Made by a program: the position numbers and the translations under genes
The notes under the pieces: generated by a model
Database searches by the model: none
Told to the model about the DNA's origin: nothing
What the model saw: the letters and a program-made list of their open reading frames with translations, nothing else
In this document: positions 14,121 through 26,340 of the stretch, piece after piece
Numbering within the stretch: the stretch's first letter is position 1
Layout: every line of letters begins with the position of its first letter
NCBI GenBank assembly: GCA_009929775.1
Contig: RZZS01000013.1
Coordinates: forward strand, 1-47,059
Length of the DNA: 47,059 bases
Direction: 5' to 3'
Source of the DNA: Alphaproteobacteria bacterium
GTDB taxonomy: Bacteria > Pseudomonadota > Alphaproteobacteria > Micavibrionales > Micavibrionaceae

Positions 14121-16289
14121 CTACCGGCCCCTCGCCCGCTCCACGCTCGCGATTTGCGGTGTCGCGCGGAGAGCCGCGATAATGTTGTTCAGATGCTTTG
14201 TGTCGTTTACGTAAATATCGAGCAGCATATCCCAGAAATCGAGGGAACGGCTTGTGATTTTAAGATTCGTGATATTGCCACCGTTCTTGCCGATAACGGT
14301 CGAGATCGTGCCAAGCGCCCCCGGCTGGTTCGAGATCGTCACATTGATCCGGCCTACATGAGCCTCGGGCGCGTCCGGACCCTCGCCCCATGAAACGTCT
14401 AGCCAGCGCTCGGGCGTATCCGCGAACGTCTCAAGCGTTTCGCAATCGATCGTGTGAATGGTCACGCCTTTGCCAGTTGTCACGATCCCGACGATCCGGT
14501 CGCCCGGAAGCGGGTGGCAGCAGCGCGCGAAATGAACTGCCATGCCGGGGATGAGACCACGGATCGGCATCGGCGCGTCTTTGCCCATCACCTGTTTCTT
14601 GTTGACCTGAATTTCGCCCGGTACGATGTCCTTTTTCTGAGCCTGCGCCTGATGGCCGGGGAAGATTGCCTTGAACACATCCCGCGCCACGAGGTGCCCG
14701 GAGCCGATATTGGCAAAGATATCATCGACTTCTGATGCCTTGTAGTGGCTCAAAACTCCTGCGACGGCCTTGTCGGTGAAGTCGTACCCCTCATGACGAA
14801 AGACCTTCTGGAGCATCGCGCGACCGAGCGAAACATATTCGCCGCGCTGTTGCGTACGGATGAAGCGGCGGATGTGCGAGCGCGCCTTGCCTGTGACGAC
14901 AAAACGCTCCCATGTCGGCGACGGATTCTGCGTCTTGGCCGTGATGATTTCGACCTGGTCGCCGTTGTTGAGCCGCGTGTTGAGAGGCGCAATGCGACCG
15001 TTGATCTTGGCCCCGACGCACTTGTCGCCGATGTCCGAGTGGATGCCGTAGGCGAAGTCGATGGGCGTCGCGCCATTAGGCAACTCGATCAGGTCACCGC
15101 GCGGCGTGAAGACGAAAACCTGGTCCTGAAACAGCTCGAGCTTTGTGTTCTCGAGAAAGTCCTCGGCCTTCTGCTCGTGTTCGAGAATATCCAGAAGCTC
15201 GCGCATCCATCGATACTCGCGAATGTTCTTGAGAACGGTCTGCTCCTCGCCCTGCTTGTACGCCCAGTGGGCGGCAACCCCGAGGTCAGCTTCCTCATGC
15301 ATCTGACGAGTGCGGATCTGTACCTCGATGCGCTGGCTTTCCGGACCGATCACCGAGGTGTGGATCGAACGGTACCCGTTCGGTTTGGGTGTCGAAATGA
15401 AATCCTTGAATCGACCGGGCACTGTCGGATAGTGACTGTGGATCAGACCGAGCACGTGATAACACTCGGCGATGTCCGCGACAACGATCCGGAAGGCCAT
15501 GATGTCGGAGAGCTGTTCGAAGGCGACGTTCTTGCGTTGCATCTTCTTCCAGATCGAGTAGCGGGTTTTCTCGCGGCCCGTCACCTGCGCCCTGATGCCC
15601 GCCGTATCGAGGTGCTTTTCAAGCTCGCGGATGATCTTGTTGACCATGTCCGTGCCTTCCTTGCGCAGGAAAGACAGACGGTTGGTTATGCTCTCTCGCG
15701 CCTCGGGATTCATGAAGGCGAAGGCAAGGTCTTCGAGTTCCTCCTTGATCTTGTGGATGCCGATACGCTCGGCGAGCGGCGCGTAAATTTCGATCGTTTC
15801 TCGCGCGATGCGATGGCGCTTTTCAGGCTTGGCAATGTGGTGAAGGGTCCGCATGTTATGCAGCCTGTCCGCAAGCTTGATAAGCAGAACCCGAATGTCG
15901 CGCGACATTGCAAGGACAAGCTTGCGGAAATTCTCGGCCTGTTTGCCCTCGACAGTCTGGACCTGGATTTTGGCGAGCTTGCTCAGACCGTCGACGAGAT
16001 CGGCCACCTCGGACCCGAACTCCCGTTTAAGATCCTCGAGCGTGGCCGCGGTGTCCTCAACCGTATCATGCAGAATGGCTGTGACGATCGTAGCTGTGTC
16101 GAGGTGCATTTCAGCGAGAATGTCCGCAACTTCAAGCGGATGAAGATAATACGGGTCGCCAGAAGCACGCGTCTGCCCCTCGTGCATTTTCTTTGCGAAT
16201 TCGTAGGCCTTGAGCACAACGTCCCGGTCGAGATCGGGGTTGTGCGCAAACAGATTCTCAAAGACCTGTTCCTGGCCCGTGCCGTGCAA
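14121..16289 (-). CDS. rsh: Bifunctional (p)ppGpp synthetase/hydrolase
   Basis: Long RelA/SpoT homologue of 722 residues that makes and degrades the stringent-response alarmone. HD hydrolase domain: His50, LHDTVEDT (73-80) and ADRLHNMRTL (140-149). Synthetase domain: GREKTRYSIWKKM (238-250), DIMAFRIVV, the G-loop KPNGYRSIH (302-310) and IEVQIRT (321-327). A TGS domain (about 387-450) and a C-terminal ACT domain follow. Both catalytic halves look intact. The start is TTG 16289 with AGAAAGG upstream; I see no in-frame ATG before it. It lies downstream of rpoZ, as in many alphaproteobacteria, but an intrinsic terminator separates the two. Confidence 0.95.
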   Translation of the reverse strand: MHGTGQEQVFENLFAHNPDLDRDVVLKAYEFAKKMHEGQTRASGDPYYLHPLEVADILAEMHLDTATIVTAILHDTVEDTAATLEDLKREFGSEVADLVDGLSKLAKIQVQTVEGKQAENFRKLVLAMSRDIRVLLIKLADRLHNMRTLHHIAKPEKRHRIARETIEIYAPLAERIGIHKIKEELEDLAFAFMNPEARESITNRLSFLRKEGTDMVNKIIRELEKHLDTAGIRAQVTGREKTRYSIWKKMQRKNVAFEQLSDIMAFRIVVADIAECYHVLGLIHSHYPTVPGRFKDFISTPKPNGYRSIHTSVIGPESQRIEVQIRTRQMHEEADLGVAAHWAYKQGEEQTVLKNIREYRWMRELLDILEHEQKAEDFLENTKLELFQDQVFVFTPRGDLIELPNGATPIDFAYGIHSDIGDKCVGAKINGRIAPLNTRLNNGDQVEIITAKTQNPSPTWERFVVTGKARSHIRRFIRTQQRGEYVSLGRAMLQKVFRHEGYDFTDKAVAGVLSHYKASEVDDIFANIGSGHLVARDVFKAIFPGHQAQAQKKDIVPGEIQVNKKQVMGKDAPMPIRGLIPGMAVHFARCCHPLPGDRIVGIVTTGKGVTIHTIDCETLETFADTPERWLDVSWGEGPDAPEAHVGRINVTISNQPGALGTISTVIGKNGGNITNLKITSRSLDFWDMLLDIYVNDTKHLNNIIAALRATPQIASVERARGR

Positions 16290-23333: not shown

Positions 23334-24923
23334 ATGACCGCCGACAGCCAGACCTCCCCCGAAATCACGCAGCATCACGACCGCATTCTCATTCTCGATT
23401 TCGGCTCGCAGGTCACGCAGCTGATCGCTCGCCGGGTCCGCGAAAGCGGCGTGTATTGCGAGATCTGGCCGTTCAATCACGCGGACGAGGCTCGCATCCG
23501 GTCCTTCGCGCCCAAGGGCGTCATTCTTTCGGGCGGGCCGTGCAGCGTCACCGAAGACGGGTCTCCCCGCGCGCCGGAGGGGCTGTTCGAGATGAACCTG
23601 CCGCTGCTCGGCATCTGTTACGGCCAGCAGACGATGGTCGAACAACTCGGCGGCAGGGTCGCAGGCAGCGACCACCGCGAGTTCGGGCGGGCTTACGTGG
23701 ACGTGCTCGACGAAACGCCGATCACCAAAGGGCTTTGGGAGAAAGGCGCGCACGAACAGGTCTGGATGAGCCACGGCGACCGCGTCGAGCACCTCCCCGA
23801 AGGTTTCCGCATCATCGGCAGGAGCGAGGGCGCGCCCTTCGCATTCGTCGCCGACGAGGCGCGCGGGTTTTACGGTGTGCAGTTCCACCCGGAAGTCGTT
23901 CACACGCCCCACGGCGCGCAGCTTCTCAGGAACTTCACGCACGGGGTCTGCGGCTGTGCGGGCGACTGGACCATGGCCGCCTTCAAGGCCGAAGCGATTG
24001 AGAAAATCCGCGCGCAGGTCGGCGGCGCAAAGGTTATTTGCGGCCTTTCGGGCGGCGTGGATTCGAGCGTCACGGCCGTGCTCCTGCACGAGGCGATCGG
24101 CGATCAACTGACCTGTATCTATGTCGATACCGGCATGATGCGCGCGGGCGAGTCGGAACAGGTCGTCGCGCTCTTCAAAAACCATTACAACATCCCGCTC
24201 ATTCACGAGGATGCGAGCGCGCTGTTCCTCGGCAAGCTCGAGGGCGTGAGCGACCCTGAAAAGAAGCGCAAAATCATCGGCGGCACGTTCATCGACGTGT
24301 TCGATGACTGCGCGAAGCGGATCGGCGGCGCGGATTTCCTCGCGCAAGGCACGCTCTATCCGGACGTGATCGAGAGCGTCAGCTTTACCGGCGGCCCCTC
24401 TGTCACAATCAAAAGCCACCACAATGTCGGCGGCCTGCCAGAGCGCATGAACATGAAGCTCGTGGAACCCTTGCGCGAGCTGTTCAAGGACGAGGTGCGC
24501 GCCCTTGGCATCGAGCTCGGCATGCACGAGGATTTCGTCAAGCGCCACCCCTTCCCGGGCCCGGGCCTCGCCATCCGCATCCCCGGCGATATCACCGGCG
24601 AAAAGCTCGACATCCTGCGCAAGGCCGACAAAATCTTTATCGAGGAAATCCGCAGCGCGGGGCTGTACGACGCGATCTGGCAGGCCTTTGCCGTTTTATT
24701 GCCGGTGAAGACCGTAGGCGTGATGGGCGACTCGCGTTCCTATGATTACGTCTGCGCCCTGCGGGCGGTCACAAGCACCGACGGCATGACCGCCGACTAC
24801 TACCATTTCGACCACGAGTTTTTAGGCCGCGTCGCGAATAGAATCGTGAATGAAGTGCGGGGGATAAACCGCGTGGTTTACGACATCACGAGTAAACCGC
24901 CGGGGACGATTGAGTGGGAGTGA
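23334..24923 (+). CDS. guaA: GMP synthase (glutamine-hydrolysing)
   Basis: Converts XMP to GMP using ATP and glutamine, the last step of guanine nucleotide synthesis. The protein has 529 residues. The glutamine amidotransferase domain has Cys95 in LLGICYGQQ and the His-Glu pair in VQFHPEV. The ATP-pyrophosphatase domain has [10 protein letters not shown]. The C-terminal dimerisation region includes [12 protein letters not shown] and ends TIEWE. The start is ATG 23334, with AGGAAG before it. An accessory alarmone synthetase gene begins 5 bp after its stop. Confidence 0.97.
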
Positions 24924-24928
24924 GGGGG

Positions 24929-25957
24929 ATGTCACGCGACATTTATCCGCAGTATTCCAATACACGGATTAACAATGCGGGAAAAAAGGTTCGAGACGGC
25001 GTGGAATGTCTGGACGACCTTGTCATTATCGAAAATTGGAGAGCTTCGCATAATCACGTTTTGAACACATGGCAGGCTAGCTTAAGGAATCGCATCAGAA
25101 GCAAAGACGTCGTCTTCGCTCAGCGTCTTAAACGACGAATAACTATTTTCGATAAATTGCGAAGAGAGCCCACGATGGCCCTTTCGAACATGCATGATGT
25201 TGCGGGTTGTCGTTTAATATTTCCTAACATTCAGAAGCTAGAGGATTTTCGTAGGAATATACACGAGAAAAATCGATTTAAGCATAAGCTCTATAGAGAC
25301 GGTGACGACCCCTACAACTATATCCTGAACCCTAGAGCAAGCGGATATCGAAGCATTCACGATGTCTATATCTACAAATCTCAGCATAAAGGGGGGAAAC
25401 CATGGGACGGCTTGAAAGTTGAGATTCAGTACCGGACGAGCAAGCAACACTCTTGGGCAACCGCGGTCGAAATAGCCGGGGCGCTAACAGGAAATCATTC
25501 TAAATTTGGACAAGGGAGCGAGGAGCAAAAAGAATTTTTTCGCTTGTCGAGCGAACTCATCGCAAGGGCACATGAAGGACTACACTCATGCTACCCTGAT
25601 TTGTCAAACGCGAATTTGATTAGCGACCTAAAAGAACTGGATGGGCAGTTACGCTTACTTAGGTACCTTGAAACATTGCAAATTATTTCAGTAAAGGTAC
25701 CGAAGAAGCGGAAGGCGCTTATACTGATGTCTCGCCAGCAGGAAGGGAAGTTCAAAATCACAATTCGAAGCTTTGACTCCATGCCGCAAGCTACAAGGGT
25801 CTACTTCGAACTCGAGAAGACTATCTTAGAATCCGATGATCTTGTTCTTGTCCGATCAGATACGAACGAGGGCATCAAAAATGCTTTTAAGAATTATTTT
25901 TCCGATGCGGGTGATTTTGTAAGATTGGTCCGAAGCGGAGTTGAAATTCTTAGTTAG
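24929..25957 (+). CDS. Synthetase-only RelA/SpoT domain protein
   Basis: A 342-residue protein with a lone (p)ppGpp-synthetase-type nucleotidyltransferase domain (about 35-185) and no HD hydrolase, TGS or ACT domain. Conserved positions are present: a basic helix KRRITIFDKLRRE, Asp90 (MHDVAGCRL), the G-loop GYRSIH with Tyr140 and His144, and Glu165 in VEIQYRT, so it looks active. The C-terminal half (190-342) is helical at first, then an unrecognised domain. The gene is clearly richer in A/T than guaA and mscS around it, a sign of transfer. It could be a small alarmone synthetase or a toxic SAS of a defence system; no separate antitoxin gene is seen. GAGGGGG precedes ATG 24929. Confidence 0.85.
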   Translation: MSRDIYPQYSNTRINNAGKKVRDGVECLDDLVIIENWRASHNHVLNTWQASLRNRIRSKDVVFAQRLKRRITIFDKLRREPTMALSNMHDVAGCRLIFPNIQKLEDFRRNIHEKNRFKHKLYRDGDDPYNYILNPRASGYRSIHDVYIYKSQHKGGKPWDGLKVEIQYRTSKQHSWATAVEIAGALTGNHSKFGQGSEEQKEFFRLSSELIARAHEGLHSCYPDLSNANLISDLKELDGQLRLLRYLETLQIISVKVPKKRKALILMSRQQEGKFKITIRSFDSMPQATRVYFELEKTILESDDLVLVRSDTNEGIKNAFKNYFSDAGDFVRLVRSGVEILS

Positions 25958-26340
25958 GCCTCGCGGCCCTCCTCGCAATGACGGATGTAAGGACAGCGTG
26001 TATTTTCTTTTAACCACGAAGCCGCTTCGCTCCACGACGAACACGAAGAACACAAAGTTCCCCTCCAGTCATCCCGAACGCTTTAGCGGAGGGATCATTA
26101 TAGCAAGCCAGGGGCAAAGATTCCTCGTCGCTCCGTTCCATCGGAAGGACAGGGCGCTGCCCTCTTCGCGCCTTCGCGTCTTTGCGATTCATATTTCTTC
26201 CACACAGAGACCACGGAAGGCACAGAGCGGGCCGGGTTCTCCCGTCCGGGTTCTCTGTGCAGCGAAGGGAAAAACTTCAGGACATCCCTCCGGAACCGAG
26301 CGGCGCGCCGACCGGTTACCCTTGTTTCCGCGTATGTCCC
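25958..26340. repeat. Patchwork of dispersed intergenic repeats
   Basis: No gene. Several repeat types lie end to end: the CCTCGCAATGACG type at 25960-25985, a CCACGAAG/CACGAAGAACACAAAG stretch at 26011-26060, the GTCATCCCGAACG type at 26067-26098, CTTCGCGTCTTTGCG near 26171-26186, and CACAGAGACCACGG...CACAGAG paired with CTCTGTG at about 26200-26256. All are types of extragenic repeats found in many bacterial genomes. Confidence 0.6.

Follow-up and report, generated by a model that had tools for sequence, protein, structure and literature searches.

The 47,059-nucleotide stretch of alphaproteobacterial DNA analysed here (the window) carries, directly behind guaA, a gene that very probably encodes a horizontally acquired CapRel, that is, a toxin and its antitoxin in a single polypeptide, working as an autoinhibited, phage-triggered tRNA pyrophosphokinase. 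Within CapRel it joins an FXXY clade with an altered closed-state interface. The more surprising part of the result is the lineage-specific slot for foreign genes that the order to which the genome belongs has behind guaA.

An AT-rich gene directly downstream of guaA

The gene and its upstream neighbour are:

23334..24923, forward strand: guaA (GMP synthase), directly upstream of the CapRel gene; from the ORF list, start codon picked by eye
24929..25957, forward strand: CapRel-family fused toxin-antitoxin gene, 342 amino acids (PDC-S33 7.8e-100; phmmer to 7ztb 5.4e-34; fold Z 24.5)

A previous sequence-only reading of this DNA had described the gene as starting 5 bp past guaA and as richer in A/T than its neighbours, and both descriptions hold. 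The guaA stop codon occupies 24921-24923 and the CapRel ORF opens with the ATG at 24929, leaving a gap of 5 bp; an alternative in-frame GTG (24914) falls within guaA, and a good Shine-Dalgarno sequence, GGGAG, is found at 24916-24920 in the guaA tail. The G+C content of the gene is 0.45 (45% versus 60% for guaA, 0.60-0.61 at the guaA end), the lowest among the 23 genes called (22 kb downstream). The last 207 residues of the guaA product are 84-90% identical to those of family relatives. No known defence gene was recognised among the neighbours of the CapRel gene in the window. Positions 25958-26340, between the CapRel gene and a gene for an MscS-type channel, are intergenic and repeat-like, with sequences of the kind CCTCGCAATGACGG and CATCCCGAACGCTTTAGCGGAGGG.

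Family assignment and predicted fold

On the evidence of sequence comparison and structure prediction, the protein is a member of CapRel, within the FXXY clade. The PADLOC profile PDC-S33 matches residues 6-338 (7.8e-100, 332.7 bits), phrog_4773 spans residues 5-336, and a phmmer search of the PDB returned CapRel SJ46 (7ztb/9erv) at 5.4e-34 over residues 8-335. PDC-S33 is the name of a candidate family; since the proven CapRel SJ46 of Salmonella phage SJ46 falls in it too (290 bits), PDC-S33 is in effect CapRel. Pfam detects RelA_SpoT only (residues 65-178, 1.7e-14), and the claim that the C-terminal 150 or so residues are unrecognised is thus true for Pfam only: they are covered by PDC-S33, phrog_4773 and the CapRel structures in the PDB. 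By analogy with the characterised member, the full-length PDC-S33 and 7ztb matches support the guess, made at the same time, that the C-terminal part may serve as antitoxin and sensor as in CapRel. The parts of the protein, all on the forward strand, are:

24929..25582: toxSYNTH (pyrophosphokinase) region, residues 1-218 (RelA_SpoT Pfam match; residue map to SJ46)
25124-25126, 25211-25213 and 25346-25348: toxSYNTH residues R66, R95 and G-loop Y140, corresponding to SJ46 R79, R116 and Y155
25607..25675: anchor-1-like helices, residues 227-249 (AlphaFold secondary structure; CapRel topology in PMC9712102)
25712..25855: pseudo-zinc-finger domain, residues 262-309 (AlphaFold; topology as in PMC9712102)
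25865..25951: anchor-2 (C-terminal), residues 313-341 (alignment to Y352/Y355 of SJ46)
25886-25897: FXXY switch motif, F320-K-N-Y323, in anchor-2 (short helix 321-324 in the model)

The synthetase had been described as intact and free of a hydrolase domain. D90, R66, R95, Y140 and E165 are indeed all present and invariant across the family (R66, R95 and Y140 are unchanged in 72 of 72 homologues), and the Pfam scan of the protein found no HD hydrolase domain. The only other synthetase of the genome is one long enzyme, the full Rsh that the sequence-only reading had also reported:

14121..16289, reverse strand: full-length Rsh with HD hydrolase, RelA_SpoT synthetase, TGS, RIS and ACT domains (ORF listed from TTG)

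Structure prediction, proposed earlier as a check on the C-terminal half, shows that this half folds as in CapRel. The AlphaFold model, built with 58 aligned sequences (pLDDT 90.6, pTM 0.88), aligns with 7ztb at Z 24.5 and 3.3 A over 281 residues (6-340). Its C-terminal elements run helix, helix, strand, strand, helix, strand, helix, helix, as do the anchors and the pseudo-zinc finger in CapRel; the finger consists of three strands (262-269, 275-282 and 304-309) with a helix (285-298) between the second and third. The global TM-score against 7ztb is low (0.67) although the partial alignment is good, which only hints at a domain shift in the model. The next-best fold matches come from housekeeping SAS enzymes, which reach a Z of about 15 and cover residues 31-218 only; RelQ (YjbM) and RelP (YwaC) share the catalytic fold over this range but are devoid of the C-terminal unit. 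FaRel2 and other two-gene toxSAS would be expected to have tRNA pyrophosphorylation in common with the window protein (PMC11559606), but their antitoxin is a separate gene and the fold match to FaRel2 reaches Z 6.3 only.

Distribution and acquisition

None of 57 relatives of the genome possesses a full-length PDC-S33 match, the search returning nothing beyond the long Rsh and a handful of further partial hits, and relatives of the protein (E 1e-20) occur in 3 of 384 other genomes of the class and 11 of 397 of the phylum. The family is mobile: its members were found in 98 plasmid records and, with an alignment as query, in 139 viral contigs, where the window protein as a single query gave no match. 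Judged from these sequence data, the gene is foreign and horizontally acquired, as had been supposed. The nearest relatives come from a small-genome alphaproteobacterium and from a member of another class (both 50% identical), and a further one from a rumen alphaproteobacterium (42%). Most relatives are likewise AT-rich single genes amid G+C-richer DNA. The window gene is chromosomal, whereas that of CapRel SJ46 resides in a prophage.

The neighbours of CapRel relatives vary between loci, so that a separate antitoxin gene is not evident. In a rumen alphaproteobacterium the CapRel relative begins within the end of a HipA_C gene, at an ATGA junction (L001:136-2087), and the two possibly form a joint system. 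Close to another relative (L090), a gene whose beginning resembles a SIR2-type protein and a transposase-like gene were noted by eye. Two relatives are interrupted: one on a viral contig has a broken frame, with the match split across frames (L231:3001-3983), and one genome copy (L057) contains an in-frame TAG.

The slot behind guaA across the order

The survey comprised 103 guaA loci from the order of the window genome, and a slot was scored when the next gene (i) lay on the same strand, (ii) began within 60 nt and (iii) had a G+C content at least 10 points lower. Such a gene follows guaA in 58 of the 103 loci, which supports reading this end of guaA as a hot spot for insertions, and these 58 genes represent 45 unrelated groups. 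The first gene behind guaA is that of lowest G+C in 15 of 20 long loci, where 1.8 would be expected. The same arrangement was found in only 1 of 23 loci for the control gene leuA (Fisher p 3e-6) and behind 1 of 39 guaA genes of other Alphaproteobacteria (p 4e-10). As the CapRel gene sits in a slot filled by unrelated AT-rich genes, its expression through read-through from guaA is likely.

Besides CapRel, the cargo includes PD-T7-4, PDC-S15, PDC-S31, PDC-S11 with a GIY-YIG domain, an AbiZ match and a PIN domain; most cargo genes have no Pfam match. Outside the 58, opposite-strand genes behind guaA include a GmrSD_N plus HEPN pair and Fic. In two congeneric genomes (L170 and L081) the proteins encoded behind guaA differ, being of 278 and of about 245-263 amino acids, and neither has a Pfam match. 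The position is a slot for foreign genes with known defence candidates among its cargo. Enrichment of PADLOC matches in the cargo was tested and rejected, because a similar handful of matches is present among the next downstream genes, and we do not claim a defence island.

Possible site-specific recombination at the guaA tail

The guaA tail of the window contains the following site:

24912..24919, forward strand: core GAGTGGGA in the guaA tail (from sequence), equal to the GIsul2 integration core (PMC9376610)

GIsul2 integrates at this core in the 3' end of guaA, and CR2-sul2 provides a precedent for an att-bounded unit moved by the integrase of another element (PMC9376610). The window locus shares target and core with GIsul2 and other guaA-specific islands (PMC9376610), but those carry their own integrase, whereas here there is a single gene. 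The sequence-only reading, which had pointed to guaA as a known insertion site, stands as regards the location, but site-specific insertion of this gene finds no support: the genome holds a single guaA tail, with no second copy at up to 3 mismatches, and none of the 18 Phage_integrase matches of the genome lies on the contig.

Copies of the guaA tail were then sought in all 103 loci, with the last 24 nt of guaA as query and a match of 15 of 18 or better within 3 kb. They were present in 8 loci, and in all 8 the copy lies where the first gene ends. Reversed and reverse-complemented tails gave 0, and ten other guaA 24-mers gave 0-2. Weaker matches (14 of 18) were set aside, since other guaA 24-mers yield nearly as many. 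In four loci (L069, L071, L201 and L212) an AT-rich gene comes after guaA, then a repeat of the guaA tail, and the next gene starts within about 80 nt; this tandem arrangement resembles an array of single-gene units.

In three loci of the order (L162:761-2263, forward; L183:3964-5289, reverse; L209:861-2153, forward) a tyrosine integrase gene comes first after guaA, and these enzymes are candidate recombinases for the slot. The same position is taken by a tyrosine integrase in three of the other Alphaproteobacteria compared. A second partial copy of the guaA 3' end is the usual footprint of guaA islands. Copies of this kind, of up to about 60 codons, were observed 1-3.5 kb behind guaA in other Alphaproteobacteria (L313, L326 and L340).

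We tentatively propose, at somewhat short of even confidence, that the guaA 3' end of the order is a one-gene landing slot, in which AT-rich, integrase-free units bounded by copies of about 20 nt of the guaA end are exchanged, sometimes in tandem, with tyrosine recombinases specific for guaA perhaps mobilising them in trans, and are expressed from the transcript of guaA, the cargo including CapRel and several other defence candidates. It is also possible, though less likely than not, that the slot was filled by illegitimate insertion and selection for read-through from guaA, site-specific recombination not being involved. That account fits the window gene itself, behind which the best match to the tail is 11 of 18 (shuffled sequences, 11.1), and the finding of tail copies in only 8 of 103 loci, but it is at odds with the results of the control queries, with the placement of every copy where the first gene ends, with the integrases that come first in three loci and with the identity of the core to that of GIsul2.

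Switch residues and proposed function

The ATP site of CapRel SJ46 is obstructed by the C-terminal domain via a YXXY motif; when a phage protein, either that of the capsid or another one, attaches to this domain, the enzyme is released and pyrophosphorylates tRNA (PMC9712102, PMC11578894). A relative, CapRel Ebc, detects a phage protein in complex with host FtsZ (PMC13423816). The window protein is only about 30% identical to SJ46 and its pseudo-zinc-finger region is shorter, but it resembles SJ46 (7ztb, 9erv) in length class, two-part fold, the residues of the ATP site and G-loop, Y355 and the majority of the interface positions. SJ46 residues R79, R116, Y155, A77, V338, L339, A351 and Y355 all have equivalents, so four of the five closed-state interface positions (A77, V338, L339, A341 and A351) are kept; at the fifth, A341 is replaced by R309. 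The second tyrosine of the motif is retained and the first, Y352, is replaced by F320. The trigger-binding residues of SJ46 are not conserved, and L280 has no counterpart in the alignment.

Of 71 homologues, 24 have F at position 352 and 47 have Y. Those with F belong mostly to a clade of 27 rows, apart from SJ46, which contains the window protein together with viral contigs; phylogeny, the other check suggested earlier, thus places the protein in a well-supported CapRel clade (SH-aLRT 100). K or R at position 341 tends to accompany F352; covariation of the two, tested on the tree, was rejected for want of independent changes, the co-occurrence being due to shared ancestry. A341K alone rendered CapRel SJ46 constitutively toxic (PMC9712102). 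Given that the window protein has R at this position and F for Y352, its switch must differ in detail.

The two substitutions, together with the missing att copy, could also be taken as marks of a degenerate or stably silent CapRel, retained only through landing under guaA. We regard this as unlikely: the reading frame is uninterrupted, no active-site residue is lost, and the F, being common to most of a clade that includes viral contigs, argues for a working variant rather than decay.

With the residues of the family kept, but F320, R309 and the trigger-binding residues changed, we infer a phage-triggered enzyme with a somewhat different switch from that of SJ46. Residues 1 to about 218 would form the pyrophosphokinase, onto which residues about 227-341 (anchor, pseudo-zinc-finger, anchor) would fold back, F320-x-x-Y323 plugging the ATP site between R66 and R95. 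By analogy with SJ46, from which substrate, autoinhibition and trigger are all extrapolated, binding of a phage protein to the C-terminal domain would free the enzyme for ATP-dependent pyrophosphorylation of tRNA at its 3'-CCA end.

A small alarmone synthetase making (p)ppGpp or (p)ppApp and tuning GTP pools beside guaA, the regulator that the sequence-only reading had also entertained, is very improbable: the synthetase fold with every catalytic residue, the resemblance of the catalytic domain to RelQ/RelP (Z about 15) and the location behind a GMP synthase would suit it, but the C-terminal half matches CapRel alone, whose characterised member acts on tRNA, the NCBIfam equivalog for GTP diphosphokinase YjbM scores 34.5 bits, far under its cut-off of 320, and the genes behind guaA in relatives are unrelated to GTP metabolism, so that the hot spot explains the position.

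As far as the literature consulted shows, members of the FXXY clade are uncharacterised, and a CapRel of this clade bears on how much variation the family tolerates in its built-in switch and sensor. The guaA slot raises the question of the route by which single, integrase-free genes arrive at one site, and it offers a lineage-specific, testable place to find new single-gene defence or toxin systems.
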